From Cytobacillus gottheilii (GTDB lineage: Bacteria > Bacillota > Bacilli > Bacillales > Cytobacillaceae), in assembly GCF_001636345.1 (NCBI RefSeq), contig NZ_KV440945.1:2623354-2687353 (forward strand): DNA of 64,000 bases, read 5' to 3'. Each line of letters opens with the position of its first letter. The first letter of the stretch is position 1. The position numbers and the translations under genes were made by a program. The notes under the pieces are model-generated. The model did not search any database. It was not told the origin of the DNA and was given only the letters and a program-made list of their open reading frames with translations. Of the stretch, positions 38,909-60,575 are shown in pieces.

Positions 38909-39121
38909 GAATAATCACCTTTCTTAAAAATTGACGCAGACTCCCCTATAAACTGAGAGTGGCATCTGTTATGTGATTTAGTGTGAAAAAGATTGCTTCT
39001 AGACAAGACATAGCCTATTACTTTTAAAAATTCATTGCTGAGTATTCTATTTTTTGGATTGATAAAGGAAATTATACAGAAATGGGAAGAGTTTCTTTGA
39101 GGATTATAAGTGAAATGATAA

Positions 39122-39151
39122 AAGCAGCCGAGGCAAAAGCCAGGGCTGCTT
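39122..39151 (-). terminator. terminator of the cold-shock gene
   Basis: AAGCAGCC pairs with GGCTGCTT, followed on the minus strand by TTTATC. The inner GGC...GCC adds a second stem. Confidence 0.8.
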
Positions 39152-39164
39152 GGTTAGTTAGCGA

Positions 39165-39365
39165 TTATAGTTTGTTTACGTTTGCAGCTTGAGGTCCGCG
39201 AGCACCTTCAACAACTTCGAAAGATACTTCTTGACCTTCATCTAAAGACTTGAAGCCTTCAGTTTGAATAGCAGAGTAGTGTACGAATACATCGTTTCCG
39301 TCTTCGCCTTCGATGAAGCCGAATCCTTTTTCAGCATTAAACCATTTTACTTTACCGTTTTTCAT
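39165..39365 (-). CDS. cold-shock protein (CspD/CspB-like)
   Basis: The 66-residue protein has RNP1 (KGFGFIEGE) and RNP2 (DVFVHYSAI), so it binds single-stranded RNA or DNA as an RNA chaperone. The start is fixed at the ATG at 39365, which follows TAGGAGGATTTTTTTT; the longer frame to 39401 is upstream of this site. A leader of about 150 nt before the start is typical of cold-shock mRNAs. Confidence 0.95.
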
Positions 39366-39528
39366 AAAAAAAATCCTCCTATTGACTAAACCATTAGCCA
39401 TCTTTAATCACCATTTACAACGATTATGCTTTACCTATACTACTGTTCCTAACCTTGTTTAAAGAGACGGAAAAGTTGCTAAAAAGTATAACACGATGCA
39501 GAACGGCTATTCTTAACTTAGCATTATA
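39366..39528 (-). promoter_or_regulatory. cold-shock mRNA leader with candidate -10
   Basis: TATAAT occurs on the minus strand at 39523-39528 and would give a leader of about 150 nt before the csp start. No good -35 was found at 17 bp. Long structured leaders of this size regulate csp mRNA stability and translation with temperature in related genes. Confidence 0.4.
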
Positions 39529-39568
39529 CTTAAAATATGTCAACAATTTCCGTTCCCTCTATTTTCCT

Positions 39569-45044: not shown

Positions 45045-46070
45045 TTACACTTGTTTTTTCAGGATGCTTTCATATTGTTTTGCTGTACGGATTTCTACTG
45101 TTAATTGCCCATCCGCCATGACAGTATGAATTAGAAAAGGGGCACCTGCTGTATTTTGAAAGCGGAAATCAAGACCTCCATAAGAAACAGTTGCATCTCT
45201 TCCGACTGGCACATATCCAACCGTAACTGAATGATTATGCTTTTCAACATATTCAACAGCCAATTGATCAACTGCATTAAATAAGGTCGAAGAAGTTTGG
45301 CAGATCCCTCCGCCAATACCCATAACAAGTTTGCCATTTACAGCTTCTTCAGCCGGCTGATAACCATGTGCTTCGTCACTTGGACCCACTGTTGTATTGA
45401 ATGAAAAAATATCATCCTTACCGACAATAACCTGGTGAATTGCTTCTGTTGAGAGTTCAATATTTTTTGTTCTTCCTGCCACATTAGGATTAAAATGTGT
45501 TGTATAGGAAGCAATGACAACCTCATTTAATTTGCTGGCGTCTTCCTCAGCATAGCCGCTTGCTGTCGTATATAAAGGAAGCTCTACCTCACCGCCTTTT
45601 TCTGAGGCAGCTAATATCCGTTCGACAAGTTCTTCTTCTTCAAGAATAACTCTTGGTGTTCCTTTAATGATTTGCCCATCAGCACCCATTTTATCAGGAT
45701 ATATGCGCTGATCATAACCACTCTTTTCATCAGTGCCTCGAGCCAGCTCTTTCGCCCACTTTTTTAATTCTTTTACATAGGCTTCCTGATTTTCACTATA
45801 GCCTAATTCTTCAGGATCTATTACTCTAATTTCTTTTTCTGTATTTGGATCAATGATTGAAATATGACGAGGTTTTTCAGCCTCCGTTTCTAACTCCTCC
45901 TTTTGCTCTGATTTTGGCTGTGCGGCACGTTCTAAATCTTCAATTTTTTCCTCAAGCTGAACAATTTCCTTTTTTAATTCCTCTTCCCTGGTTTCCTGTC
46001 CTGAACACCCGCTGAGAATGACTAATCCGAGAACTGCAATTAAGCTGTAAAAACTCCATTTTTGCTTCAT
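45045..46070 (-). CDS. VanW family lipoprotein
   Basis: The 341-residue protein starts with a signal sequence and lipobox LSGC. A coiled coil of about 40 residues follows (ELKKEIVQLEEKIEDLER), then the VanW domain (FSFNTTVGPSDEAHGYQPAEEAVNGK, GIGGGICQTSSTLFNAV, HNHSVTVGYVPVGRDATVSYGGLDFRF). VanW proteins are exported, envelope-associated and of unknown activity; the homologue YoaR of B. subtilis is the nearest known type. The start is the ATG at 46070 after GGGGGAAAC. Confidence 0.85.
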   Translation of the reverse strand: MKQKWSFYSLIAVLGLVILSGCSGQETREEELKKEIVQLEEKIEDLERAAQPKSEQKEELETEAEKPRHISIIDPNTEKEIRVIDPEELGYSENQEAYVKELKKWAKELARGTDEKSGYDQRIYPDKMGADGQIIKGTPRVILEEEELVERILAASEKGGEVELPLYTTASGYAEEDASKLNEVVIASYTTHFNPNVAGRTKNIELSTEAIHQVIVGKDDIFSFNTTVGPSDEAHGYQPAEEAVNGKLVMGIGGGICQTSSTLFNAVDQLAVEYVEKHNHSVTVGYVPVGRDATVSYGGLDFRFQNTAGAPFLIHTVMADGQLTVEIRTAKQYESILKKQV

Positions 46071-46170
46071 GTTTCCCCCTGCATACATGTAAAATTTAGA
46101 TTCATTTATATGTATGGGCCGAAAAGGAAAGATATGTAAGAGTTTATAAAGATTTTTTCATTCTAAAAAG

Positions 46171-46782
46171 TTAAAGAACCAGTTTATAAACTAGGAACCG
46201 TTCATATTGATTTTTCTTAAACAAGGCAGATAAATCTATTTCCTGCTTTAGCTCAAAACATGGATGTTTTTCTAGAAAATCCACATAATCACTGTCGATA
46301 TAATAAAAAATCAATTCGATATCTCGCCAGCTTTCTTCTGCTGAAAGTAAGATATTATTGACCACCTTTATAAAGATCTGCACAGTAAAAGGATTAAAAA
46401 AGTAAAAACGATTTTGAGAAGGAAGGATTTTGTAATCCTCTGCTAATGTACATTCAAAGTGTATTTTACCACTCGATTTAGCTTTCTTCATTTTGTAGCT
46501 ATTGGCATTCAAAAGTGCCTGCTGATAAAATTGTTTATTCATTTCAATTCCTGTCGCTGCATTTTGAAAATGGAAATGAGTATAAAAATTTAATCTGCCC
46601 TTCCCACAGCCATAATCAACTAAATGATCAGAAGGAGAAAGCTGATAATGCTTAAACAATTCATCTAGGGCACGATAAGGCGTCGGCTCATAGCGGTGAT
46701 AATGAAATGAAGAAATAACACTAAGCTGCTGATCTGATGTAGAAATATTTAGTTTTGCTTCATACTGTTCTTCCTTTAACAT
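46171..46782 (-). CDS. SAM-dependent methyltransferase
   Basis: The 203-residue protein has the class I SAM-binding loop VDYGCGKGR near residue 55, an acidic end of strand 2 (ATGIEMN) and FYFFNPF near 125 in the place of motif IV. This resembles rRNA/small-molecule methyltransferases of Firmicutes, but the substrate is unknown. It starts with AGGGGAATACAAAT-ATG. The LtaS-type gene lies 64 bp upstream-in-map, with a terminator between the two. Confidence 0.75.
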   Translation of the reverse strand: MLKEEQYEAKLNISTSDQQLSVISSFHYHRYEPTPYRALDELFKHYQLSPSDHLVDYGCGKGRLNFYTHFHFQNAATGIEMNKQFYQQALLNANSYKMKKAKSSGKIHFECTLAEDYKILPSQNRFYFFNPFTVQIFIKVVNNILLSAEESWRDIELIFYYIDSDYVDFLEKHPCFELKQEIDLSALFKKNQYERFLVYKLVL

Positions 46783-46811
46783 ATTTGTATTCCCCTATCT
46801 TTATCATATGG

Positions 46812-46843
46812 AAAAGGCTGCCCATTATGTAAGGCAGCCTTTT
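46812..46843 (-). terminator. terminator of the LtaS-type gene
   Basis: AAAAGGCTGCC pairs exactly with GGCAGCCTTTT, followed by CC and an A/T tail. Confidence 0.9.
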
Positions 46844-46845
46844 GC

Positions 46846-48873
46846 TTATTCTGTATCTTCTTCAGTACTTGATTGTTCTTGATCTGTGGATGTTTCATCT
46901 GTCTGCTCTTCATTTTCATTAGAAGGCTCGGAGTCATCCTCAGGAGCAGTATAGTTATATTGAGAACGGTCAATTGCTTCAAAGCCTTCTGGTTCATAAA
47001 AACGAAGGAGGTCTCCGTTAACGACCTTGTCAGATAACGCAAGCTTATTCTCAACAACCGCCTGCATTTCTTCAGCTTCTTTTAGGCGAGCTTCATCTTC
47101 AATCAATTCACCTGTTTTGGAATCATAGTATTTACCTGAAATCGACGTAATGGTTGAGCTGACAAAATCACCATTTCTGAATGGTATGACATCGTCATGT
47201 CCCTCTGACAATAAGTCTGTTCCAAATTGCAGATAATCTTTTGTATCTACACCAAGTAAATGCATCAGTGTAGGCATCAAGTCAATCTGACCGCCATACT
47301 CGTGATTTATTCCGCCTTCCATTCCTGGAACGCGAATGAATAACGGCACACGCTGCAGGCCAGTTTGTTCAAATGCGCCAACTTCATGACCTAACACTTC
47401 TTCCATTGCCTTTGTATGGTTGCTTGAGATTCCATAGTGGTCGCCATACATAACGATCACAGAGTTCTCATACAGCCCTGATTCTTTAAGATAATTGAAA
47501 AACTCTTCTAAAGCTTCATCCGCATAACGAGCTGTACGGAAGTAATTATCCACTGACTTATCTCCAGTGGTGTGAGGAGCAATGGTTGCTTTATCCTCAG
47601 CTAATGGATATGGATAATGGTGTGAAACAGTAATAAATTTTGTATAGAAAGGCTGTGGCAATGATTCAAGCAGCTGTTCAGACTGCTCAAAAAACGGCTT
47701 GTCCATAAGTCCATAATCAGCCATATCTTCTTCATTCAGTTCATAGTAGCTGCTGTCAAAAAAGTGATTATATCCAAAAGATTTATAAATCTCATTACGG
47801 TTCCAGAATGTGCCAGAATTACCGTGGAATACAGCAGATGAGTATCCTTTCTGACCTAAGATCCCTGGAGCTGATTGATAAGTGTTCATCCCTTTTGTTG
47901 TAAATGCAGATCCTTGCGGAAGTCCGTATAAAGAGTTCTCAAGGATAAATTCTGCATCAGCTGTTTTTCCTTGTGCTGTCTGATGAAAGAAGTTATCAAA
48001 GTAAAGAGTATTTTTATCCTCAGTTAATGAATTTAAAAATGGTGTTACTTCTTCACCATGCAGTTCATAATTCATAAGGAACGTCTGAATAGATTCAAGG
48101 TGAATATAAATGACATTCTTGCCTTCAGCAATGCCAAAGTACTCTGGATTAGGTTCTGCATAATTCGATGACGTAAAGTTTACAACTTCTGTCGTATCGT
48201 TGCTGTCGGCCATTACACGCTGTGCCGAAGCTTTTGTGCTTTGAACTGCATCGTAAATTGTATAGTTGTACATACCTAAATACTTAACTATATAGTTACG
48301 GTCAAATCCTCTTGTTAATAACTGCGGACGATCTGTTTCTGCTAAGCCAAGATTTGCACATGAAATCGCCAGTGCCAGTGAAAATACTGCTGCAGCTTTG
48401 CGGCGGCTCATATCCTTCATTTCAATCTTCGCAAATTTAAACACAAGCATTAATAATAAAAATGCAAAATCTGCAAAGAATAACAGGTCATATGGTCTAA
48501 GCAATGATAATACACTGCTGCTGACATCTCCAAAGTTTTGAGTCTGCGTTAAAGTCGGCAGTGTAATAAAGTCGTTGAAGAATCTGTAATAAACAGTATT
48601 CGCATAAAGTAAAAACGACATAAAGAAGTACAGCACCATTAAGGTTATATACTTTTTGCGCCCTTTAAAAAAAGAAGCAATCCCCAAGAACAAAATGGAA
48701 GATCCTAACGGGTTTAAAAATAACAAAATCTTTTGAAGTGTATTTTCTATACCAAGTTCAAATTGTGTTAATTGTACAAAATATGTTTTCATCCAAAGGA
48801 AGAACACAGCTAAAAAGAAAAAGCCAATATATTTGCTGAAAATACTTTGACCTTTACTCAACATGTTGTTCAT
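46846..48873 (-). CDS. lipoteichoic acid synthase family protein (LtaS/YfnI type)
   Basis: The protein of about 675 residues has five membrane helices in the first 190 residues and then an extracellular sulfatase-type domain. Catalytic Thr lies in GKTADAEFI (near 300), metal ligands are in VIYIHLESIQ, MYGDHYGISSN and the GGQIDLMPTLMHLLG region. It polymerises glycerol phosphate from phosphatidylglycerol onto a lipid anchor. The C-terminal 35 residues are extremely acidic (EDDSEPSNENEEQTDE), an unusual tail for the family. Start is the ATG at 48873 after AAGGTAGGTG. Confidence 0.9.
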   Translation of the reverse strand: MNNMLSKGQSIFSKYIGFFFLAVFFLWMKTYFVQLTQFELGIENTLQKILLFLNPLGSSILFLGIASFFKGRKKYITLMVLYFFMSFLLYANTVYYRFFNDFITLPTLTQTQNFGDVSSSVLSLLRPYDLLFFADFAFLLLMLVFKFAKIEMKDMSRRKAAAVFSLALAISCANLGLAETDRPQLLTRGFDRNYIVKYLGMYNYTIYDAVQSTKASAQRVMADSNDTTEVVNFTSSNYAEPNPEYFGIAEGKNVIYIHLESIQTFLMNYELHGEEVTPFLNSLTEDKNTLYFDNFFHQTAQGKTADAEFILENSLYGLPQGSAFTTKGMNTYQSAPGILGQKGYSSAVFHGNSGTFWNRNEIYKSFGYNHFFDSSYYELNEEDMADYGLMDKPFFEQSEQLLESLPQPFYTKFITVSHHYPYPLAEDKATIAPHTTGDKSVDNYFRTARYADEALEEFFNYLKESGLYENSVIVMYGDHYGISSNHTKAMEEVLGHEVGAFEQTGLQRVPLFIRVPGMEGGINHEYGGQIDLMPTLMHLLGVDTKDYLQFGTDLLSEGHDDVIPFRNGDFVSSTITSISGKYYDSKTGELIEDEARLKEAEEMQAVVENKLALSDKVVNGDLLRFYEPEGFEAIDRSQYNYTAPEDDSEPSNENEEQTDETSTDQEQSSTEEDTE

Positions 48874-49136
48874 TTCTTGCACCTACCTTCTAGCACACTA
48901 TTATAGCATATTAGCATTCTATTTTATATATGATTAACTTCCCTAACCAATAAATGGTTATTTTATCCTGTGTCAAAACAATGACCACAGTTATATAACT
49001 ATACTCCGTTTTTTTATTAAGTCAAGTATCTCCAATTAGACAGAAATTTATCAATAATATTGCAATACCAGATGAACAATTTCCAAACGCTTGATCGATA
49101 CTTGTATTGTGCCCAAACTCTTGCTTAGACGATACA

Positions 49137-49334
49137 ATGGATAAGGAACTGGAGATATTTAGTATAAAACAGCATTATTGGATTGTCCAATCATTTCCAT
49201 TCGACAAAATCGGCGTCCTGAGATGCTGGTGGTTTCGTCAGGCTGAGTATGCTCTCATCACACAGAAGGACGGTTTTCTGCTTTTGCAAGTCTGCTGGCT
49301 CACATATAAAAAACCCGAACAAATAGACAGATAA
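49137..49334 (+). CDS. doubtful small protein, tryptophan-rich
   Basis: A frame from ATG 49137 encodes 65 residues with HYWIVQSFPFDKIGVLRCWWFRQ and LLLQVCWLTYKK. The start lacks a clear ribosome-binding site, and the end overlaps the minus-strand terminator at 49312. It may be spurious; it is listed because it is the only sizeable frame in this 500-bp gap. Confidence 0.2.
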   Translation: MDKELEIFSIKQHYWIVQSFPFDKIGVLRCWWFRQAEYALITQKDGFLLLQVCWLTYKKPEQIDR

Positions 49335-49362
49335 TCAATAAATCGTCTAAACTGTTCGGGTT
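49312..49362 (-). terminator. terminator of the DHA2 transporter gene
   Basis: AACCCGAACA pairs exactly with TGTTCGGGTT, with an inner TAGAC/GTCTA stem, followed on the minus strand by TTTTTTAT. Confidence 0.85.
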
Positions 49363-49403
49363 AAACATAGTCTGAATTACTTACTTTTCAACCTGATTTA
49401 CTA

Positions 49404-50927
49404 TCAGTTTTTAGCTAATTTTGGCGAAAACTTCTGCGGTTCTTCAGCTGGTTCTTCTGCCTGTTTAGAACGTTTAATGAAGAAAGCTAAAATTAAAGCC
49501 ACTGCCGCAATTCCAGTCGCCACTAGGAATGCATCATTAATGCCTTCTAGTGTAGCTTGCATCGTAATTTGCTGCTGCAATTGAGCTGCTGCTTCAGCTG
49601 TAGGCTGAGCACCGCCGCTTTGCTGCATAGCATCCGCTGCGAGATCTTTTGCATAATTCTCACTTTGTGTTGTCATAATTGTGACAAGCAAAGCAGTCCC
49701 AATCGCACCTGAAACTTGGTTTAAGGTATTGTTCATCGCAGTACCATGCGGATAAAACTTCGTTGGCAGCTGATTAAGCCCGTTTGTTGAAACTGGCATC
49801 ATCACCATTGACATCCCGAACATACGAACAGAGTTCATGATGACAAGCTGCGTGTATGTGATATCCATCGTTAAATTACTGAAGAAATATGTTGTTACTA
49901 CGGTAATTGCTAATCCAATAATCGCTAATACACGACCGCCAAATCTATCGAATAAACGTCCAGTTATAGGTGACATTAACGCCATAACCAATGCACCTGG
50001 CAGCATCATTAAGCCTGCATCTAATGGCGTAATACCACGGATGGTTTGAACATAAATAGGTATTAATAGCATTCCTGAGAACATAGCCATATTCATTGTC
50101 ATTGTTATAACAGAAGATAATGCAAACATCGGGAATTTAAAAACGCCAAAGTTCAGCATTGGAACAGTCTGTTTGTGCTGACGGATAATAAATGTAACGA
50201 GTGAAACCACTCCGACAGCCAGTGGAATAATAACATGCAGACTATCCCAGCCTTTACTTCCTGCAGAGCTGAATCCATATAAAATCCCGCCAAATCCTGC
50301 GCTCGATAGGATAACAGATACAATATCCAAACGAAGATGCACTTTTTCTTTCTTATCTTTTAATAAGAAGAAACCAATTAGCAATACAATCACTGCGATT
50401 GGGGTTACAAAGTGGAAAAGCATTCTCCAATCATAATTTTCAACGATCCAGCCAGATAGTGTTGGCCCAATTGCAGGTGCAGCCATTAAGATCAGACCGA
50501 AAATCCCCATAGCCGCTCCCCTTTTTTCAATTGGAAAGCTAACCAGCATTACATTCATTAATAACGGCATCATGATAGCCGAACCTGATGCCTGCAGCAT
50601 TCTTCCTGAAAGCAAAATTGGGAATACATCGGCGATTCCGCATATTAAAGTACCAATTGTAAATAAACTCATGGCAACTAAGAATAATCTGCGCACTGAA
50701 TATTTTTGAATTAAAAACGCAGTCATCGGAATTAATACTCCATTGACGAGCATAAAGCCAGTCGTTAGCCACTGCACAGTTGTTGGTCCAATTTCTAAAT
50801 CTTTCATAATAGACGGCAAGGCGATATTTAGCAGTGTATTATTTAAAAAAGCAATAAATGCACCAATCATTAAAACTGCAATAATGCCGTACGGAGGCCG
50901 TGTGTTTGAATTGTGTTTTTCTTCCAT
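49404..50927 (-). CDS. MFS drug exporter, DHA2 (EmrB/QacA, LmrB-like)
   Basis: The protein of about 507 residues has 14 hydrophobic helices and the family motifs FLNNTLLNIALPSIM (helix 1), VQWLTTGFMLVNGVLIP and ASGSAIMMPLLMNVMLVSFPIEKRGAAMG (motif C region, helix 5), and GPTLSGWIVENYDWRMLFH. It exports drugs in exchange for protons. The C-terminus is extended by about 25 charged residues. The start is the ATG at 50927, six bases after AAGAGGTG. The operator-like palindrome upstream points to control by a TetR-type repressor (LmrA/QacR-like), not present in the window. Confidence 0.85.
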   Translation of the reverse strand: MEEKHNSNTRPPYGIIAVLMIGAFIAFLNNTLLNIALPSIMKDLEIGPTTVQWLTTGFMLVNGVLIPMTAFLIQKYSVRRLFLVAMSLFTIGTLICGIADVFPILLSGRMLQASGSAIMMPLLMNVMLVSFPIEKRGAAMGIFGLILMAAPAIGPTLSGWIVENYDWRMLFHFVTPIAVIVLLIGFFLLKDKKEKVHLRLDIVSVILSSAGFGGILYGFSSAGSKGWDSLHVIIPLAVGVVSLVTFIIRQHKQTVPMLNFGVFKFPMFALSSVITMTMNMAMFSGMLLIPIYVQTIRGITPLDAGLMMLPGALVMALMSPITGRLFDRFGGRVLAIIGLAITVVTTYFFSNLTMDITYTQLVIMNSVRMFGMSMVMMPVSTNGLNQLPTKFYPHGTAMNNTLNQVSGAIGTALLVTIMTTQSENYAKDLAADAMQQSGGAQPTAEAAAQLQQQITMQATLEGINDAFLVATGIAAVALILAFFIKRSKQAEEPAEEPQKFSPKLAKN

Positions 50928-50952
50928 TGTTTTCACCTCTTATTGTACTGTT

Positions 50953-50970
50953 GGTACATTAATTTGTACC
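50953..50970. promoter_or_regulatory. operator-like palindrome upstream of the DHA2 gene
   Basis: GGTACA and TGTACC form exact six-base arms around TTAATT. A further GTAC lies at 50945-50948. The palindrome overlaps the candidate -10 of the transporter gene, the normal position of a repressor site. Confidence 0.5.
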
Positions 50971-50991
50971 TTTGTTCTACATCATAGGCAA
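50963..50991 (-). promoter_or_regulatory. candidate promoter of the DHA2 gene
   Basis: TTGCCT (50986-50991) lies 17 bp from TACAAA (50963-50968) on the minus strand. The -10 overlaps the palindrome. Confidence 0.4.
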
Positions 50992-51120
50992 TATCATATA
51001 ACACTCAATCACTTTATGCAATCAAAATTTCTTCGATTTCCTAAATTTATTTTTTCTGACTTTATAGAGATATTATTAACCATTTTCCCTGGAATTCTCC
51101 TTTTAATAGTGTGAAAAGCA

Positions 51121-51154
51121 AAAAACTCACCATTTTAAAAAAAGGTGAGTTTTT
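51121..51154 (-). terminator. terminator of the nitric oxide synthase gene
   Basis: AAAAACTCACC and GGTGAGTTTTT pair fully around an 11-12-base A/T loop, with T runs on both strands. Confidence 0.9.
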
Positions 51155-51164
51155 ATTAGGTCTT

Positions 51165-52256
51165 TCATGAATGATTAGCATAAGGTGCCTTCTGATAGAA
51201 GTAATTTGGCTTCTTAATTTTATTATCATAGGAAGAATGAAAGATATGGGTAGAAGCCGGGGAAATTGGCGGTATAAGCCATGTCCAGTCTCCTGTAACC
51301 TCTCTTTTCTGATCGGCTTCTATTTCTTCAAACCGCTTAAATTGCTTAGCGGCCGTATGATGGTCCACAATGCTGACACCATTTTTCTTGTAAGAGTAGA
51401 GTACAGCTGCATTTAACTCGACTAGTGCTCGATCCTTCCATAGAGTTGCATTTGTTTTAGTATTCAATTCAAGCAACTCAGCAACTTGTGGCAGCACATT
51501 GTACCGTTCAATATCAGCAAAGTTTCTTGCACCAATTTCAGTGCCCATATACCAGCCGTTAAAAGGAGCTGCACTATACTCAATGCCGCCAATCTCCAGC
51601 TTCATTTCAGAAATAATCGGTACTCCATACCATTTTAAGTTTAAATCTCGAAATTCCGGATACTCTGGATGCTCTATCTCTATTTCTTTAACAAGCTCAA
51701 GAGGGACTTCTCTCCATCTTGGCGTCTGATTATTGATTTGAACTACAATTGGCAGGACATCATACATACCATATTTAGGCTTCCAGCCAAGCTGAATACA
51801 TTCCTTTGTGAATGCAGCGGAATGAGGATCGCCGGTTATACCTTTCTCTGAATCATATCCAGCATATCGAATCAGCTGATGATTCCATATGCGGAAAGCC
51901 TGGTTTTTCTCCTTTTGAGGAAAAATCGTAATGGTAGGACGAATTCTTCCCTCATTTGTTGCGTAAGTAATATGGTCTATGAGAGCAGCTAACATTTCCT
52001 CTTCATTTTCAATGTTTCTTTTATCAATGACCGTGAGCTGTTCCCAAAATAACCTGCCAATACAGCGATTGCTGTTTCGCCATGCCAGTTTTGCTCCATA
52101 AGTTAACTCTTCAGCAGTGTGATTGTATGTACCTGTATGATCAATACTCTTTTCGATTTCCTGGTGACGAAGTTCAATTTCTTCTCTGCTTTTGCCAAGT
52201 TCCTGATAACAGAGGTGAATAAACTCTTTTGCCTCTGTTTTTAGTTCATTACTCAA
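51165..52256 (-). CDS. nos: bacterial nitric oxide synthase (oxygenase domain)
   Basis: The 363-residue protein has the NOS heme site [10 protein letters not shown] with axial ligand Cys65, and [15 protein letters not shown] near residue 240, whose Glu binds the arginine guanidinium. The pterin region ([18 protein letters not shown]) is near the end. It makes NO from arginine using electrons from cellular flavoproteins, since the reductase domain is absent as in all Bacillus NOS. NO protects against oxidative stress and antibiotics. Length is normal. The start ATG follows AAAGGAGG. Confidence 0.97.
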
Positions 52257-52437
52257 GAGTGAACCTCCTTTTAATGATACTTCATATATATACTCATAGA
52301 ATTTACTGATATTAAGAAATCTTGATGCATGGCAAAAATAAAAGGACAGCTAATGTCTCAATTTGAATCTCTAAAATAAAACGCTTTTTCAAACATAATC
52401 TGCGTTGCTATTCATAAATTCAATTTTCTACAAAAAA

Positions 52438-52457
52438 AACTGCTATAGTCAGCAGTT
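52438..52457 (-). terminator. terminator of the tRNA-Sec gene
   Basis: AACTGCT and AGCAGTT form exact arms around six bases, followed on the minus strand by TTTTTTT. It is 33 bp after the CCA end. Confidence 0.85.
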
Positions 52458-52489
52458 TACCTTATTTTATATAGTATTATTAGCTTTGC

Positions 52490-52586
52490 TGGCGGGACCG
52501 CCTGGGAATCGAACCCAGCTGACCGCTCACGGCGGTCACAGATGGTTTTGAAGACCACGGGGGACACCAGTACCCCATTCAGCCCC
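52490..52586 (-). tRNA. selC: tRNA-Sec (UCA anticodon)
   Basis: A 97-nt tRNA runs from GGGGCTGA at 52586 to an encoded CCA at 52490. The anticodon loop CTTCAAA gives anticodon UCA (52549-52551), which reads UGA. The variable arm is long, with a 7-bp stem (TGACCGC/GCGGTCA, 52520-52538), and the T arm (CTGGG-TTCGATT-CCCAG) is standard. Seven pairs of the acceptor stem form, with an A-G mismatch at position 8. These are the marks of selenocysteine tRNA, which SerRS charges with serine before SelA converts it. No other sel gene is in the window. Confidence 0.95.
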
Positions 52587-52618
52587 ATTTCTAAAGTTGA
52601 GAATATGTAAGCTCTTAA

Positions 52619-52624
52619 ATTATA
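52619..52624 (-). promoter_or_regulatory. candidate -10 of the tRNA-Sec gene
   Basis: A perfect TATAAT lies 32 bp before the tRNA 5' end, allowing a short leader removed by RNase P. A convincing -35 was not found at 16-18 bp. Confidence 0.35.
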
Positions 52625-52822
52625 TTTCGTCGATATACTGTAACATGGTACTATGTTTTTCGTTATCTTTCAATAGTAAATACCTTGTTGTTTCTATTTA
52701 ATTGTTACATTCTTATGAACACTCAAATGACTGAATATAATGAATGTGCTGGAATGGCTTCTTGTCTGATAGTAAAACAAGGTTTATAATAGGATCAGAA
52801 TATTTCAGTGTAGGTGAATGCA

Positions 52823-53248
52823 ATGCTTGAAGGCTGGTTTTTATGGTTTATTTTATTTTGGATTATCGTTTTACTCGGGTCATTTGCGATTGGCGGCTTT
52901 TTTATGTTCCGAAAATTTTTAAAGCGCTTGCCAAAAGAAGACGGCAAGTCCGATATGGATTGGGAAGAACATTTTGTAATGGAAACAAAGCATTTATGGA
53001 AGCAAGATGAAAAAGAGCTGCTAGAGGATCTTGTCAGTCCCGTTCCAGAGTTATTTAGGGATGTAGCACGCCAGAAAATCGCTGGAAAAATAGGAGAACT
53101 TGCTGTAAAAGAGAAAGCAAAAGTGATTAATCAGGATTTGGTTATCCGAGGATATATTTTAGCAACACCAAAAAGGGATCATAAATTTCTCCGCAAAAAA
53201 CTGGATGAAAGCCGAATTAGTACAGTCCCTTATGAACATTTATTCTAA
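52823..53248 (+). CDS. yneK: YneK-like DUF2621 protein
   Basis: The 141-residue protein has one N-terminal helix (FLWFILFWIIVLLGSFAIGGF) followed by a charged cytoplasmic domain with MDWEEHFVMETKHLWKQDEKELLEDLVSPVPELFRDVARQKIAGKIGELA. This is DUF2621, the YneK family. In B. subtilis yneK lies beside ccdC, as here, although in this window it is convergent with it. The start is the ATG at 52823; the GTG at 52814 is part of the ribosome-binding site. Function unknown. Confidence 0.85.
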   Translation: MLEGWFLWFILFWIIVLLGSFAIGGFFMFRKFLKRLPKEDGKSDMDWEEHFVMETKHLWKQDEKELLEDLVSPVPELFRDVARQKIAGKIGELAVKEKAKVINQDLVIRGYILATPKRDHKFLRKKLDESRISTVPYEHLF

Positions 53249-53262
53249 TCAAATGTATAAAC

Positions 53263-53296
53263 AAAAAATGCTCCGGCACATGCTGGAGCATTTTTT
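53263..53296. terminator. bidirectional terminator between yneK and ccdC
   Basis: AAAAAATGCTCC pairs with GGAGCATTTTTT. It lies between convergent genes and has T runs on both strands. Confidence 0.9.
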
Positions 53297-53352
53297 GTTT
53301 AATTTGGAAGAAGGACAATCTATTACCGGATGCGAATAAGCCGTTCTTCTTA

Positions 53353-53835
53353 TCAGACCGCATTTTTCCCTAATAAAAGAGTGTTCTGCAGCTTCTTAAA
53401 ATTGATATACATCGCAATACGCCAAGGTACAATCATAGCAAAGGCTAAAATCCAAAACATACCTCCAAGCTGGCCAACATCAATAGATGCGCTTAAAATG
53501 GACTTTGCCGCAATTCGTATGACAAGTAATCCAATTAAAATGAATATAAATGCTTTAGAGCGGATTAAATATATATCGTTTTCCTTAATTTCAAATTTAG
53601 ATGTTTTAATCAATAAGATTGAAAATAACATACCTACTAAGATGGCTTCCAGTATTTCAATTGGAGTCACACGGAAGACAGGAAATATAAACATTAGCGC
53701 ACCAGTACTCATAAATAATGGCGGCAAAATAATTTTTCTAGCTGAAGCAGGTTTTTCAGCAGACTTCATTCGGATAAACATAGCAAAAATGGCCATGAGC
53801 ACTGCACCTATAGAAGAAACAACTACCATGTTCAT
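53353..53835 (-). CDS. ccdC: cytochrome c biogenesis-associated membrane protein CcdC
   Basis: The 160-residue protein has four or five helices and the CcdC/YneJ features KSAEKPASARKIILPPLFMSTGALMF, then FRVTPIEILEAILVGMLFSILLIKTSKFEI and IPWRIAMYINFKKL near the end. It is encoded with CcdA and YneI in Bacillus, and ccdC is thought to belong to the cytochrome c maturation locus, although it is not essential for it. The order ccdA, yneI, ccdC is kept here. Confidence 0.85.
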   Translation of the reverse strand: MNMVVVSSIGAVLMAIFAMFIRMKSAEKPASARKIILPPLFMSTGALMFIFPVFRVTPIEILEAILVGMLFSILLIKTSKFEIKENDIYLIRSKAFIFILIGLLVIRIAAKSILSASIDVGQLGGMFWILAFAMIVPWRIAMYINFKKLQNTLLLGKNAV

Positions 53836-53948
53836 ACAGAGACATCCTTTTTTCTATAATTTTGACTATCTTATTATATCTCATGTTAATAGAATGAGTC
53901 ATCTATTATGAGAATTAATTACGAATTTAGAGTTGAAAATGAAAAAAA

Positions 53949-53969
53949 CGGCACCTTCAAAAGATGCCG
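53949..53969 (-). terminator. terminator after yneI
   Basis: CGGCA and TGCCG with inner CTT/AAG pairs form a hairpin followed on the minus strand by TTTTTTT. It separates yneI from ccdC. Confidence 0.75.
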
Positions 53970-53982
53970 ATTCAGTGTTCAT

Positions 53983-54342
53983 TCAATTTAAAACTCTTTC
54001 TACCGCATCCAAAACGCGTGATTCGTCAAATGGCTTAACGATAAAATCTTTTGCGCCTGATTCAATTGCTTCCACGATCATTTTCTGCTGCCCCATTGCT
54101 GAGCACATAATGATTTTAGCTGCAGGAAATTCCTTCTTAATTTCTCTCATTGCTTCAAGACCGCTCATCTCAGGCATTGTGATGTCTAAGGTTACAAGAT
54201 CCGGCTGCAGTTTACGGTAAAGATTGATTGCTTCTAATCCCGTTTCCGCTTCGCCTACAATTTCATGCTGCGCCTTTTTTAATATGTTTGAAAGCGTAAG
54301 TCTCATAAATTTCGCATCATCCACTATTAAAATCTTTGCCAT
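53983..54342 (-). CDS. yneI: CheY-like single-domain response regulator YneI
   Basis: The 119-residue protein is a receiver domain alone: acidic pair near D7-D8 (ILIVDDAKFMRL), phosphorylation site near D54 (LVTLDITMPEMSG), conserved Ser in IIMCSAMGQQ and Lys in FIVKPFDESRV. It lacks an output domain, like CheY. YneI lies in the B. subtilis ccdA locus; its kinase and target are not known. RBS is good. Confidence 0.9.
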   Translation of the reverse strand: MAKILIVDDAKFMRLTLSNILKKAQHEIVGEAETGLEAINLYRKLQPDLVTLDITMPEMSGLEAMREIKKEFPAAKIIMCSAMGQQKMIVEAIESGAKDFIVKPFDESRVLDAVERVLN

Positions 54343-54540
54343 TGGTGTTTCCCCCTCGATACGGCGACGGTAAGTTCAATTATATGTAAAATACAGCTGT
54401 CTACTTGAGAATTACATAATCCAATATACCTAATTTAATCAAAAATATCAATTCAAAGTAACCGACAATTTTTGCGGATGTATAAGCTGAATGTTCAATT
54501 TTACTATTGTCAGTGGTTTTTCACTCACTTTTAAGCCCTA

Positions 54541-55248
54541 TTAAAACCCTTTAAATCCGCCTGTTAAAGCAGTGAAATAGGAAATAATCATTGTCATCCA
54601 ATCAAAAAATAAAATGATCCCCATAACAATCATAATATATCCGCCGATTTTCATCAATTTTACATTATGTTTTTTAATCCATTGCAATTTGCCAATAAAA
54701 AACGACATAACAAAAAATGGAACAGCGAAACCTAATGTATATGCAATCATATAAAATATACCGGAACCAGGATTTGTTGCCGCTAACGCAATAACTGATA
54801 CAAGGATTGGCCCCATGCATGGTGTCCAGCCAGCTGCGAAAGCAAGACCAATTAAGACAGAACCGAAATATCCCGCTGGTCTGTTCTTAAATTCAAAACG
54901 CCTTTCCTTCATTAAAATTTCTGGACTGATAATACCGACAATCATTAATCCAAACACAACAATAAATATTGCGCCAATCTGCCTGATCAGGTTATTATAC
55001 TCTCTGAAAAACTCACCAATAAAAGTAGAACTAAATCCGAGTGCAATAAAAATGATAGAAAAACCAATTAAAAAGGCTATAGTATGAAAAAGGCTTCTCT
55101 TCTGCAGCATAGCATTATCATTTTTCAATTCCCCTACAGACATCCCGGTTATGTAGGACAAAAAAGCAGGATATAAGGGCAAACAGCACGGTGAAATAAA
55201 ACTTAAAAAACCTGCACCCAAGGCAAGAAATAAATTAATATCTGTCAT
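54541..55248 (-). CDS. ccdA: thiol-disulfide transport protein CcdA
   Basis: The 235-residue protein has six helices and the two conserved cysteine sites of the DsbD/CcdA family: [21 protein letters not shown] in helix 1 and [14 protein letters not shown] in helix 4. It moves electrons from cytoplasmic thioredoxin across the membrane, which cytochrome c maturation and spore formation need. The length is normal. Its stop lies about 200 bp upstream of yneI, on the same strand. Confidence 0.92.
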
Positions 55249-55610
55249 CGTAACAACTCCCGATCATATAGTGATCATGTTCTATTCTAGCAAAAGCACC
55301 AAGAATAGTAAGGTTTAAATGTGAACAATTTATGTCATAACACCATTGCTCAAAAAAACACAGAATTTCAGCATGTAAGCTACCCGTAATTCTAACCCAT
55401 TCTCTAAATAGATGTCCATATATTTCTATGTTTCAAGTATGTAACTAATGTTATTTTGTTTAGACATCCTAAAGTTTTACAAAAGTTTCTTTTGAATTAA
55501 TTACCAACATTCGTTATACTAGATAGGAGCTAACAATTTTTGTGACAATTTCTTGAGTTTTACATGGGTGGTTTGTGATGTCTGTACTATTTGCTAAAGG
55601 TGAAATTGAT
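55249..55610. other. intergenic between divergent ccdA and ynzD
   Basis: It holds the candidate promoter for the Spo0E-like gene (55492-55520). The part near ccdA is AT-rich and shows no further gene. Confidence 0.4.
55492..55520 (+). promoter_or_regulatory. SigA-type promoter of the Spo0E-like gene
   Basis: TTGAAT and TATACT are separated by exactly 17 bp. The start codon lies 90 bp downstream. Confidence 0.6.
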
Positions 55611-55790
55611 ATGAAGGGATTTCCAGCCGTGAATAAAAATGAATTGCTTGCATTAATCGAAAAAAAACGTTCAGAATTAATTCAAGTAGCCATGTCAAAC
55701 GGGTTAAATTCTACGGATGCTATTAAATTTAGTCAAGAGCTGGATGCCTTATTAAATGAATACAATCGAACCTTTCTAAAAAAAGCGTAG
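55611..55790 (+). CDS. ynzD: Spo0E-family aspartyl-phosphate phosphatase (YnzD-like)
   Basis: The 59-residue protein carries LIEKKRSELIQVAMSNGLNS and SQELDALLNEYNR, matching the two helices and the SQELD motif of Spo0E, YnzD and YisI. These remove phosphate from Spo0A and delay sporulation. The start is the ATG at 55611, seven bases after AAAGGTGA; the longer frame from 55575 passes through that site. Position next to ccdA matches ynzD of B. subtilis. Confidence 0.88.
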   Translation: MKGFPAVNKNELLALIEKKRSELIQVAMSNGLNSTDAIKFSQELDALLNEYNRTFLKKA

Positions 55791-55828
55791 AATGCAGGTC
55801 ACCTCTCATGGCACCCTGCATTCTTTTT
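55789..55828 (+). terminator. terminator of ynzD
   Basis: AGAATGCAGG pairs with CCTGCATTCT, followed by TTTTATTTTT. Confidence 0.9.
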
Positions 55829-55844
55829 ATTTTTATTTACCTTA

Positions 55845-57641
55845 TTAAGTTCCTACTGCATCTTCCACAATTTCCGCTGACCCATTCTGCAATAAATACA
55901 TTTTGTGATAAAGCCCTCTTTGGGAAAGCAGCTCCTGGTGATTGCCCCTTTCAACTATTTCCCCCTGGTGGAGAACCAGAATCTGTTCGGCATCTTGAAT
56001 CGTTGATAATCGATGGGCAATTGCAATTGTTGTTCTGCCCTTTCGCATTTTGTTTAGCGCAAACTGGATGGCTTCTTCTGTTTCAGTATCAATATTAGCC
56101 GTCGCTTCATCTAGAACCAAAACCTTTGGATTAGATGCAATGGTTCTGGCAAAAGCAATTAGCTGACGCTGACCGCTGGAAAATGTTGACCCTCTCTCTA
56201 CTACCTTATGATCATATTTGTCCTCTAATTGCTGAATAAAGTGATGCGCTTGGACAAATTCAGCTGCCTTTTTAATCTCTTCATCTGATAGTCCATCATT
56301 ATATAGACTAATATTATCTTTAATAGTTCCATAAAAAAGGAATGGATCCTGCAGGACAAGGCCGAGCTTTTTGCGGAGCTCTTCTTTTCCGTAATGCTTA
56401 ATGGATTGTCCGTCTACCAAAATATCTCCGCGCTCAAATTCATAAAATCTCATCATCATATTAATGATTGAACTTTTTCCGCTTCCTGTATGACCAACAA
56501 GTGCCACCGTTTCTCCAGGTTTGGCTTTGAAGCTAATATTTTTTAGAACATCCCGTTTGCCATCATATGAAAATGAGACATTGCGGAATTCTATTTCACC
56601 ATCTGTAACTTGCAAACTGCTGTTATCAGACTGATCAGGAGCAAGCTCATCTTCATCAAGCAGTTTAAAAGCGCGTGATGCCGCAATAATCGCTTGCTGA
56701 TACATAGACAGGCGCTGCATGATATTATTAACAGGCTCAAAAAAACGATCTAAATAACTAACAAACGCATAAATAACGCCAATTTCAACTGGACTATTTA
56801 ACGAATCAAAACCAAAAAAGCTTAACACGATGATTAAAGCAAGTGCGTAAACAAGATCGATGGCTGGACGAAGCAGCAATCCATCAATCTTTATATTGCG
56901 TATTCCTGCTTTATAATGCGCTTCGTTGATTTCCTCAAATTCGTCCCGCATTCTTTTTTCCTGCTTAAAAACTTGAATAATAGCCATTCCCTGCAATGAT
57001 TCACTTAACTTGGCATTCAGCTGACTGAGCCGTTCACGCAAATCCTGGTAAAAAACGGAGCTGTATTTCCGATATGCTGCCATTATCATAAAAATAAGCG
57101 GCAATATAATAAGGCAGATTAGGGCAAGCTTCACATTCAGGATAAACATAGCAATAAAAATCCCAACCAGCAGAAATCCGCCTTGAATAAAGGTCACTAA
57201 GACACTGACAAACATATCCTTTATCGCTTCAGTATCATTTGTAACACGTGAGACAATACTGCCCGCAGGTGTTTTATCAAAATATTTTAACCCAAGAGCC
57301 TGTACCTTACTAAAGACATCAATTCTCAGCTGCTGTATGATTTTCAAAGCGATTTCCTGGAATTTCAGCAGCTGAAAATAAGAAACAATTAAGTTCATGA
57401 CTTGAAGACCTAAATATGCAGTCCCAAGTATAATTAATGGTTCCGCAACCAGATTCTGAGGACGCAAATAATCATCGATGAAAATACTCACTAGAATTGG
57501 GCCTAAAATATCTCCTGCCGTTGTTGCCAGCAGAAGGAGAAAGGCAAGGATAATTGTTTTTTTATGCGGTTTTGTATAGGATAGTAAACGAAATAAAATA
57601 TTTCTCTGTTCTTTCCCTGTTAAAACTGGTATTTTTTCCAT
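55845..57641 (-). CDS. ABC exporter half-transporter, second subunit (YheH-like)
   Basis: The 598-residue protein has six membrane helices (about 35-320) and an ATPase domain with Walker A LVGHTGSGKSS (near 390), signature FSSGQRQL in place of LSGGQ, Walker B VLVLDEATANID and switch IAHRL. The altered signature (FSSGQ) is usual for one half of heterodimeric exporters. I start at the ATG at 57641, seven bases after GGAGGG. It follows the first subunit and overlaps or abuts its end, so the two are coexpressed as one multidrug exporter. Confidence 0.88.
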   Translation of the reverse strand: MEKIPVLTGKEQRNILFRLLSYTKPHKKTIILAFLLLLATTAGDILGPILVSIFIDDYLRPQNLVAEPLIILGTAYLGLQVMNLIVSYFQLLKFQEIALKIIQQLRIDVFSKVQALGLKYFDKTPAGSIVSRVTNDTEAIKDMFVSVLVTFIQGGFLLVGIFIAMFILNVKLALICLIILPLIFMIMAAYRKYSSVFYQDLRERLSQLNAKLSESLQGMAIIQVFKQEKRMRDEFEEINEAHYKAGIRNIKIDGLLLRPAIDLVYALALIIVLSFFGFDSLNSPVEIGVIYAFVSYLDRFFEPVNNIMQRLSMYQQAIIAASRAFKLLDEDELAPDQSDNSSLQVTDGEIEFRNVSFSYDGKRDVLKNISFKAKPGETVALVGHTGSGKSSIINMMMRFYEFERGDILVDGQSIKHYGKEELRKKLGLVLQDPFLFYGTIKDNISLYNDGLSDEEIKKAAEFVQAHHFIQQLEDKYDHKVVERGSTFSSGQRQLIAFARTIASNPKVLVLDEATANIDTETEEAIQFALNKMRKGRTTIAIAHRLSTIQDAEQILVLHQGEIVERGNHQELLSQRGLYHKMYLLQNGSAEIVEDAVGT

Positions 57642-57645
57642 CTCG

Positions 57646-59394
57646 CTACCCTCCGTACTCCACAAGTTCTTCTAATTGCTGACGTAAAAACATTGTTTTA
57701 TACCAGCCTTCTATTTCCATCAGCTCTTCATGTGTTCCGCGCTGAATGATGGTTCCTCCATCCAATACAATAATTAGATCAGCATGCTGAATGGCACTTA
57801 AACGATGAGCCGTTATGATCGTTGTTTTATTTTCTCTTTCTTCCTTTAATGAACTTAAGATTGCTTCTTCGGTCTTAGCATCAACTGCTGATAACGAATC
57901 ATCCAGCACTAGAACTTCATGATTCATCAACAGAGCCCTGGCGATTGAAATCCGCTGCTTTTGTCCTCCTGAAAGCGAAACGCCACGTTCCCCTACGACC
58001 GTCTCATATCCGTCTGTAAATTGCAGGATATCCTCATGAATATGAGATATCCTTGCAGCATCATAGATTCGTTCCGTATCTATCTTTGGACTTGTAAAAG
58101 CAATGTTCTGGGCAACAGTAGTGGAAAATAGAAAATGCTCTTGCGGAACATATCCAATCGCTGCCCTCAAGCTGTCGAGTTTATATTTCTTAATTGAAAG
58201 GTTATTAAAAAGAATCTCACTCTTTTCCCCTTCAAATTCCCGTGTAAGCAGTTTTAATAAAGTTGTTTTGCCTGCACCTGTTTTCCCTACGATTCCTAAA
58301 GTCTGCCCCTTTTTTAGTTCAAAGTGAATATCTTTAAGGACGGGAACATTGGCTCCCGGATATGTAAAAGAATCAATCTGATAAAGAAGGTTTCCGCTCG
58401 GTACCTCTGAGCTGGCATCTGCATCTTCTTGAATGTCTACTTTCTCTGCCAATAATGCTCTAACACGGTCATATGATGCTCTTCCACGCTCTACAATATT
58501 AAACAGCCATCCGAACGCAAGCATTGGCCATACCAAAAGACTCAAATACGTTGTAAAAGAAACAAGTTCTCCAATTGTGATTTCCCCTGCAAGAACAAAT
58601 CGTGCTCCAAAAGCGATGGATAGAAAAAAAGACACACCCACAATAATGCTGATGGTCGGATCAAATAAAGCGTCCACCTTTGCAACTGATATATTCTTAT
58701 TTACAACATCCTCAGATTGTTTGCGAAAATCTTCTATATCTTCTTTTTCCTGACCAAATGTTTTAATGACCTTAATACCAGAAATACTTTCCTGTGTTTT
58801 ATCATTTAAATCTGAAAAAGCTCCCTGTGCTTTGTGGAAACGTTTATGAAGCAATGTTCCATACCAGCTGGTTAAAATCGCCATTAACGGCATTGGAATC
58901 AGCGCAATGAGAGTGAGCTTCCAGCTGATCGTTGCTGCCATAGCAATGATTACAGCTCCTCCTGTAGCCAAAGAATCAACTAATGTTAATACTCCAGCAC
59001 CGGCTGTCTGCTGAATGGCCGATAAATCATTGGTGGCATGTGCCATTAAATCACCAACGCGTTTCTTCTGATAGAAAGCTTGGGACATCTTAGTAAAATG
59101 GTGATAAAGATTGTTCCGCAGCAGCCTGGCAAGCTTAACAGATGAACCAAAAATCATGATCCGCCAAAAATACCGCAGCACATACATGGCAAGTGCACAA
59201 ACTGCCAAAACACCGATCCAAAAAAGAATAGTCTCAGCAGTGAGCGTATGACCAATGATATGATCAACGAAAATACCAACAATTCTCGGCGGAACCAGCT
59301 GAAGAACCGCCACAAATAATAGTAAGATAATACCTGTAATATACGCCTTTTTTTCTTGTTTAAAAAACCACATTAAATCCGTAAAAACCCTCAT
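57646..59394 (-). CDS. ABC exporter half-transporter, first subunit (YheI-like)
   Basis: The 582-residue protein has six helices and an ATPase domain with Walker A IVGKTGAGKTT (near 375), signature LSGGQKQR and Walker B VLVLDDSLSAVD. The Asp in place of the catalytic Glu of Walker B (LDDS) means one degenerate site, as in YheI and BmrC-type partners of a heterodimer. I start at the ATG at 59394 after GGGGGACAACAT; the frame to 59427 is upstream of it. Its stop lies four bases before the second subunit's start. Confidence 0.88.
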   Translation of the reverse strand: MRVFTDLMWFFKQEKKAYITGIILLLFVAVLQLVPPRIVGIFVDHIIGHTLTAETILFWIGVLAVCALAMYVLRYFWRIMIFGSSVKLARLLRNNLYHHFTKMSQAFYQKKRVGDLMAHATNDLSAIQQTAGAGVLTLVDSLATGGAVIIAMAATISWKLTLIALIPMPLMAILTSWYGTLLHKRFHKAQGAFSDLNDKTQESISGIKVIKTFGQEKEDIEDFRKQSEDVVNKNISVAKVDALFDPTISIIVGVSFFLSIAFGARFVLAGEITIGELVSFTTYLSLLVWPMLAFGWLFNIVERGRASYDRVRALLAEKVDIQEDADASSEVPSGNLLYQIDSFTYPGANVPVLKDIHFELKKGQTLGIVGKTGAGKTTLLKLLTREFEGEKSEILFNNLSIKKYKLDSLRAAIGYVPQEHFLFSTTVAQNIAFTSPKIDTERIYDAARISHIHEDILQFTDGYETVVGERGVSLSGGQKQRISIARALLMNHEVLVLDDSLSAVDAKTEEAILSSLKEERENKTTIITAHRLSAIQHADLIIVLDGGTIIQRGTHEELMEIEGWYKTMFLRQQLEELVEYGG

Positions 59395-59566
59395 ATGTTG
59401 TCCCCCACGTTCTTCCATAATAACCAACTTAGTTTATCAAATATTTAAAAAATAAGAAAGATTAAATTTAAATCCAAAAGCTGTTTGTCGGTAACAACCT
59501 GAAACCTTTTCCCTGCTCAACCGTAAGATAAGATAGCAAGAAATTCATTGAAAGGATGCGGGTAAA

Positions 59567-60010
59567 ATGAAACGACTCGTACAACTTTTGTTCATCAGTA
59601 TCCTAGCAGCAGTTTTAAGCGGATGTTCATTTTTAGGGGAAGTAAACAATTCGTTAGACTATATAAATGAAGCAACTGCACATATAGAGACACTAAATTC
59701 CTTTGCCGAAGAAGCACCAGAATTGCTTCAGGAGGCAGTAACGGATTCTGCTGTTCAAACTGAACTTGAAGAACAGCTTCTGCATGTTAAAACAGAAATT
59801 GAAGAATTTATTCAGCTTACTGACATTCCCTCATTAGCAGAAGAGCTGCATGCAGACTTTGTTCAGAAAAACGAGGCTTTATTGGCAGAAATCAATACCC
59901 TGTTAGACAATGGTAACCTCGTGATTTCCAATATTGAAAACTCTGAACTATTTACAACCATTCAAGAAGCGAACGAACTCTTTACAAGAATTGAGGACTT
60001 AGGTCTTTAA
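59567..60010 (+). CDS. DUF6376-like lipoprotein
   Basis: A signal sequence and lipobox LSGC (Cys20) mark an exported, lipid-anchored protein. The mature part of about 128 residues is helical and acidic (LDYINEATAHIETLNSFAEEAPEL, VKTEIEEFIQLTDIPSLAEELH, IQEANELFTRIEDLGL), as in the DUF6376 family of Bacillus. It looks like a helical bundle or coiled coil. The ATG follows GAAAGGATGCGGGTAAA. It is divergent from the ABC exporter pair. Function unknown. Confidence 0.7.
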   Translation: MKRLVQLLFISILAAVLSGCSFLGEVNNSLDYINEATAHIETLNSFAEEAPELLQEAVTDSAVQTELEEQLLHVKTEIEEFIQLTDIPSLAEELHADFVQKNEALLAEINTLLDNGNLVISNIENSELFTTIQEANELFTRIEDLGL

Positions 60011-60264: not shown

Positions 60265-60575
60265 CCCAGAACGGACTGGGTTCGTAACTGGATTGCGAGA
60301 CTTTCAGATGGTATTGCTTTCGGAACTGGGTTGCGGGACTTTCGGAAGGTATTGCATTCGGAACTGGGTTTCGGACCTTCAGAAGGTATCGGTTTCGGAA
60401 CTGGGGTGCGGGACTTTCAGAAGTTATTGGTTTCGAAACTGAGTTGCAAGTCATTCAGAAGGTATTGGTTTCGAAACTGGGTTGCGAGTCTTTCAGATGT
60501 TTTCGGTTTCGAAACTGGGTTGCGAGATTTTCAGAACTGATGGGTTTCGGAGCGGAGTTGCGAGACTTTCAGAAG
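60265..60575. repeat. 38-bp tandem repeat array, eight units
   Basis: The marker AACTGG recurs at 60286, 60324, 60362, 60399, 60437, 60475 and 60513, and a diverged copy falls at 60551. Period is 38 bp (37 once). A typical unit reads TTTCGGAACTGGGTTGCG, then GGACTTTCAGAAGGTATTG. Units differ by several bases each. It is unrelated to the 52-bp array, has a period not divisible by three, and stands in a non-coding gap of 700 bp between the lipoprotein and yneF. Confidence 0.95.

Follow-up and report, generated by a model that had tools for sequence, protein, structure and literature searches.

The tRNA gene at 52490-52586 of the window (the whole stretch of 64 kb that was analysed) is a genuine selC, an ordinary member of the known selenocysteine (Sec) system. 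On the strength of its sequence and of its partner genes, it is almost certainly a functional tRNA-Sec gene, which would be read with SelA, SelB and SelD at UGA codons followed by a SECIS hairpin. What we observe directly is the selC gene itself, its three protein partners, three UGA-containing frames with hairpins and the co-occurrence of selC with selA across genomes. Comparison within the genus further indicates that the selenoprotein shared by most of its members is a small SelW-like protein (30/33 genomes), predicted from its UGA codon and hairpin, rather than a Sec-containing formate dehydrogenase (at least 15/33). The other notable point is a purine-purine layer 8 in the acceptor arm, typical of the selC genes measured (68/69).

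The selC gene and its signals

The gene and its surroundings are as follows:

52490..52586, minus strand: selC, tRNA-Sec(UCA), 97 nt including the encoded GCCA end (ARAGORN and Rfam RF01852)
52437..52458, minus strand: terminator-like hairpin of selC, 9 pairs and then a T run (terminator scan)
52619..52624, minus strand: candidate TATAAT -10 box, placed 32 nt upstream of the tRNA, with no acceptable -35 (sequence reading)
51165..52256, minus strand: oxygenase domain of nitric oxide synthase (NOS), lying 3' of selC beyond the terminator and outside the Sec system (PF02898, 574.2 bits)
52814..53248, plus strand: DUF2621 gene, divergent neighbour on the 5' side, a landmark conserved at the selC site but outside the Sec system (PF11084, 238.6 bits)
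53353-55248: CcdC, a response regulator and a CcdA-like protein

A prior sequence-only reading had proposed a tRNA-Sec(UCA) gene here, and two models bear it out. ARAGORN finds a single tRNA in the 64-kb window, on the minus strand, which it types as tRNA-SeC with the anticodon tca; the Rfam tRNA-Sec model RF01852 matches 52494-52586 with 58.3 bits, above its gathering score of 47. Read directly, the transcript starts with GGGGCUGA and ends in CCCGCCA, a discriminator G preceding the encoded CCA. It folds into an 8-layer acceptor arm, a 5-pair T stem, a 7-pair variable arm (UGACCGC/GCGGUCA) and a 6-layer D stem. The gene thus combines the features by which a bacterial tRNA-Sec is recognized: the UCA anticodon, a score above the curated cut-off, the long variable arm, the discriminator G and CCA. 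The UCA anticodon, long variable arm, G73, CCA and a 13-layer acceptor plus T arm are also what it has in common with selC of E. coli K-12 (b3658; RF01852). The 7-bp variable arm, the encoded CCA and the A facing G in acceptor layer 8, all claimed earlier, are confirmed by the letters: the acceptor and T arms fit the 8+5 length, with the nonstandard A-G pair as layer 8, where E. coli selC has C-G. In the register used by Rfam, five layers of the D stem are standard pairs and one is U-C; by our reading, a shift of one base lets all six pair in the window copy.

The gene has its own terminator-like signal, as had been noted, in the form of the hairpin and T run at 52458-52437. A terminator scan of 501 bases returned 2 sites, which are both strands of this one hairpin, against 0.4 expected from shuffles, and the closest relative (G017, locus L071) has a comparable hairpin past its selC. 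The proposed -10 box stands in part: TATAAT is present at 52624-52619, but a promoter scan around selC listed no site there, and the selC promoter is therefore only a candidate. A TTGNNN element separated by 16-18 nt from a TATAAT, at most 70 nt before selC, is found in 27/29 genus copies beside DUF2621; this pair of boxes is absent from G017, G032 and the window selC. By consensus, the promoter of the window selC is poor.

Partner genes elsewhere in the genome

The source genome (4.59 Mb in 3 contigs) was searched for sel genes with the cut-offs of curated models. The sequence-only reading had staked its case on selA, selB and selD being present in this genome, and all three exceed their cut-offs: SelA with 563.7 bits (cut-off 267.9), SelB with 374 (cut-off 242.25) and SelD with 406 (cut-off 125). 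The complement of SelA, SelB and SelD, the last with a UGA at its Sec site, is as in the known system. The arrangement differs from the known selABC operon: by their coordinates, selB lies ~142 kb, selD ~214 kb and selA ~219 kb from selC, such that the sel genes are spread over ~219 kb, with selC at a ccd/DUF2621 landmark. From known biology, the selC transcript would be charged with serine by SerRS; SelA would then convert Ser-tRNA-Sec to Sec-tRNA-Sec using selenophosphate supplied by SelD, and SelB would deliver the product to UGA codons that precede a SECIS hairpin. Transcription of selC and Sec insertion at UGA are likewise what known biology leads us to expect.

It had also been predicted that this organism makes at least one selenoprotein, most often a formate dehydrogenase or a redox enzyme, and that UGA-containing frames with a SECIS-like hairpin should be sought. 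Three such frames were found, for SelD, the alpha subunit of a formate dehydrogenase and a SelW-like protein, and all three genes are located outside the 64-kb window. SelD has a single in-frame UGA, at its Sec site (STKAGUGCKIG); the stretch after this UGA, folded in 30 sequences, adopts folds that differ between relatives. The formate dehydrogenase alpha subunit likewise has a single in-frame UGA (EHQARIUHSSTVAGLAPTYGRG) and scores 1039 bits against TIGR01553 (cut-off 814.2), making it of the FDH-N type. By our reading of the translations, it stands between an FdhD-like gene upstream and, downstream, iron-sulfur, cytochrome-like and molybdopterin genes. Its Sec site is close to that of the FDH-N alpha subunit of E. 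coli, fdnG (TIGR01553), with ARIUHSSTVAGLAPT here and ARVUHGPTVASLAPT there; what differs is the Gram-positive host and the presence of the enzyme in 7/36 genomes of the genus. The hairpin loop GGUCU starts 21 nt after the U of the UGA, the same distance as in fdhF of E. coli K-12. The folding energy of this hairpin is no better than that of shuffled sequence (z 0.01 and 0.54), and the argument is accordingly carried by the likeness to E. coli.

These frames have a practical consequence. Some UGA codons of this Bacillus-like organism are probably read as selenocysteine, as supported by selC and its partner genes, and at least 3 genes, those for formate dehydrogenase, SelD and the SelW-like protein, would be truncated by an annotation that treats all UGA codons as stops.

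A SelW-like protein as the commonly shared, predicted selenoprotein

Within the genus, an FDH-N alpha subunit with UGA is present in 7/36 genomes and an FdhF-type enzyme with UGA in at least 13/36, the Sec site having been read in all 13. Taken together, at least 15 of the 33 genomes with both selA and selC have a Sec formate dehydrogenase of one type or the other. Since it is thus not the selenoprotein common to most of the genus, we compared UGA-containing frames around selA and selD between genomes, two at a time. In the comparison of G011 with G012, one frame, ...EFCMMUNYAPKAA..., stood out besides SelD and frames that were not recognized. Its counterpart in the source genome lies near selA (contig C1:2457553-2457786, minus strand; also the read-through frame L128:7748) and encodes a SelW/Rdx-like protein of 77 aa with a CMMU motif. 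It scores 81.5 bits against PF10262 (cut-off 22.6) and 65.3 against TIGR02174 (cut-off 34.2); against the closer model NF041051 it reaches 85.9, just below the cut-off of 88. The CxxU near the N-terminus is shared with the SelW-like/Rdx selenoproteins of PF10262 and TIGR02174, and table 1 of PMC13188914 lists SelW-like proteins among the predicted selenoprotein families of prokaryotes.

A motif search of 45 selA neighbourhoods (33 from the genus, own genome included, and 12 from other genera) recovered a SelW-like gene in 41, with UGA in 40 and a cysteine codon (TGT) in 1 (G026). It was not found by motif near selA in the other 4, two within the genus (G007, locus L261; G032, locus L281) and two outside (G041, G057). 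Two TAA rows of this search (L258, L273) proved unrelated to SelW and are not counted. The gene with UGA is hence present in 30 of the 33 selA-bearing genomes of the genus, and in 17 of the 18 sel-bearing genus genomes that have no Sec formate dehydrogenase among the matches listed. What sets it apart from the known SelW/Rdx families is this location near selA in 41/45 neighbourhoods, together with the single genus member that has Cys and a broken hairpin. In the open papers searched, such a genus-wide SelW pattern was not found.

The hairpin after the UGA of the SelW-like gene has five pairs, all of them standard in 40/40 Sec copies (29 distinct). One pair is changed on both sides in 5 of the 29 distinct rows; the other four never vary. 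Covariation score, percentage paired and number of changed cells were reached by 0/500 shuffles, and the measures that count pairs and types (two of the five) by 362/500. When the stem is slid, 20 to 62% of cells are paired; a slide of -2 gives a covariation of 0.109 against 0.127 for the unslid stem, and a slide of +3 gives 4 changed cells against 5. The only Cys copy, that of G026, is also the only one with a broken stem. Given the four invariant pairs and the relatedness of the rows, we regard this as support rather than as proof.

Individual genomes depart from the common pattern in their own ways. In G026 (L275:6748), the SelW-like gene with Cys (TGT) and a broken hairpin is a natural switch between Sec and Cys, in a genome that keeps selA, selC, a UGA-containing selD and Sec formate dehydrogenases. 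G032, without a SelW-like gene by motif near selA, has no Sec formate dehydrogenase among the matches listed either, and its SelD match covers only model positions 1-214.

Other families were considered as selenoproteins of the genus and set aside: KCU-star (NF033934; 0/36 genomes), GrdB (PF07355; 4/36 above the cut-off, of which one is full-length and three are partial) and NF041239 (4/36, none with an internal stop, three of them having been read directly). Scanned for conserved UGA codons against G017, the window yielded 13 rows, in none of which a selenoprotein was recognized; those at 43050, 43824, 50179, 50707, 57920 and 58847 are antisense to open reading frames. In a control, the same scan of stretches of the source genome against G017 recovered SelD and formate dehydrogenase; between the source-genome locus L128 and G001 it gave no row, though SelD and SelW occur in both. 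Its sensitivity is thus limited, and the window may still contain a selenoprotein. Read-through frames in stretches of the source genome were mostly uninformative.

Distribution of selC and selA

A selC over the cut-off is found in 112/151 genomes, own included, and selA in 113/151. At E 0.001, all 151 genomes and all 14 controls match the selC model, which we take to be other tRNAs, so that only the cut-off separates the two classes. Applying it, 112 genomes have both genes, 1 has only selA, 0 have only selC and 38 have neither; the single genome with selA and no selC over the cut-off (G122) carries its selA on a 6.1-kb contig. Within the genus, selA, selC and selD are present in the same 33/36 genomes and absent together from G015, G016 and G023, and each of the 33 selD matches over the cut-off contains one in-frame UGA. 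Thus, selC is not unusual among the kin of this organism. The earlier statement that B. subtilis lacks the Sec system agrees with the control genome, in which neither SelA nor SelD was found at E 1e-60. In lacking selenocysteine, B. subtilis is not representative of its wider order.

A purine-purine layer in the acceptor arm

The sequence-only reading had suggested that the A-G mismatch at layer 8 could weaken recognition of the tRNA. We collected 73 selC genes from the window, the best 30 loci of other genera, and the genus plus two further stretches, second copies included; 69 of these have a full CCA end by ARAGORN and were counted, the other 4 being left out. Layer 8 is A-G in 47, A-A in 12, G-A in 6, G-G in 3 and a standard G-C in 1, that is, purine-purine in 68/69, and the sole standard pair belongs to the second selC of G002. 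Accordingly, A-G is not a sign of a weak window copy, and we reject the mismatch as the mark of a weakened gene. It is instead a feature of the lineage sampled. The D-stem layer is also nonstandard in 65/69 genes (U-C in 63) in Rfam's register, a count that depends on the register chosen.

PMC5330540 describes forms of bacterial tRNA-Sec whose arm has 12 pairs and bulges; in contrast to these, the present one keeps the 13-layer length. A purine-purine layer 8 of tRNA-Sec was not found in the open papers searched. We tentatively raise the possibility, though leaning somewhat against it as a whole, that the tRNA-Sec of Bacillaceae gave up its eighth acceptor pair for a purine-purine layer, such that SelA and SelB would read the length given by 13 stacked layers rather than by 13 base pairs, and that a SelW-like protein encoded near selA is the selenoprotein common to most of the genus, Sec formate dehydrogenase being a minority, optional one. 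The purine-purine layer offers a natural variant with which to probe the length rule of SelA and SelB recognition.

Alternative readings of the gene

Two readings would deny the gene a role in Sec insertion. It might be a decayed or orphan selC, either a relic of a lost system or a UGA suppressor acting without SelB; the missing good -35, the non-canonical layer 8 and the distances to selA, selB and selD (~219, 142 and 214 kb) would fit such a fate. Yet all three protein factors score over their cut-offs, three UGA frames with hairpins are there to be read, layer 8 is just as non-canonical in nearly every other selC measured (68/69), and selC accompanies selA in 112 of the 113 genomes that have the latter, which together make an orphan very improbable. 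The same SelA, SelB, SelD and UGA-containing genes argue against a selC*-type tRNA-Cys or an allo-tRNA, i.e. a gene resembling tRNA-Sec whose product carries cysteine or serine and is unused for selenocysteine. Such genes occur in Firmicutes and Clostridia among others, according to PMC7609411, but the anticodon here is UCA and the tRNA-Sec model passes its gathering score; of the two readings this one is the more remote, to the point of being negligible. A functional selC therefore remains by far our preferred reading.

The selC site and integration

The placement of selC beside nitric oxide synthase and the ccd locus, as first described, is confirmed by the PF02898 match and by the positions of CcdC and the CcdA-like protein. 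The two sides of the gene differ in how far they are shared. DUF2621 adjoins selC in 29 of the 32 other selC-bearing genomes of the genus (exceptions G005, G009 and G025), and selC lies within the examined flank of DUF2621 at 55/80 named loci; the loci with this pair are labelled Cytobacillus, Mesobacillus, Neobacillus, Robertmurraya, Rossellomorea, Peribacillus and Heyndrickxia, among others. NOS, which begins 233 bp past the window selC, is near selC in 1/32 other genus genomes (with up to 4 kb examined) and at 0/80 named loci. The one genome is the closest relative, G017, which has the same order of NOS and MFS genes as the window. The DUF2621/ccd neighbourhood is thus an old address of selC, and NOS a local neighbour outside the Sec system.

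The gene had further been flagged as a possible landmark for integration, a suggestion that holds for relatives and fails for the window. An integrase match of at least 300 aa begins 131-228 bp past selC at 16/70 selC loci, and PF00589 was detected in the 5 integrases scanned out of those 16 loci; an integrase is also present at 13/80 named loci, a set that overlaps the 70. Several relatives have second or partial copies of selC further on. These phage-type integrases closely past selC, their PF00589 domains and the additional copies would be the grounds for viewing the window selC, too, as one end of an integrated island. Against this, no integrase match was found in the 14 kb searched (46001-60000 of the window), NOS takes up the space from 233 bp past selC, and the order of NOS and MFS genes is shared with G017. 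On the basis of these 14 kb and the shared gene order, we reject the window selC as an island border, such an origin being highly unlikely.

In the relatives themselves, no more than the 5' half of selC is left beside DUF2621 at three loci, with an integrase after it: L161:2828-2876 (with L064:3951-4047), L153:2740-2775 and L200:2804-2837, with selC positions 1-49, 12-46 and 12-44 retained, respectively. At L161, a complete selC appears ~8 kb away. Conversely, L188, L152, L069 and L137 have a complete selC at DUF2621 and, 1 to 11 kb on, a 3' piece running from position 34, 46, 46 or 28 to 97. These half-selC patterns suggest a crossover inside the tRNA, with elements able to carry either half. 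G002 (L137-L139; G002:C16:8000-67999) has, beyond integrase genes downstream of its native selC, a glycine-reductase-like cluster (GrdB, 548 bits) accompanied by another selA, by a selB-like gene and by a second, divergent selC; this second selenocysteine cassette looks like an import.

Other features of the window

Away from selC, the window contains a group II intron (40975-42776, minus strand) whose reading frame (41049-42308) encodes a 419-aa reverse transcriptase/maturase (PF00078, PF08388). Two tandem arrays are present, one of period 38 with ~8 copies (60277-60575) and one of period 52 with ~7 copies (32392-32804). A cspA thermoregulator RNA lies at 39120-39541 on the minus strand (103.5 bits, gathering score 78).
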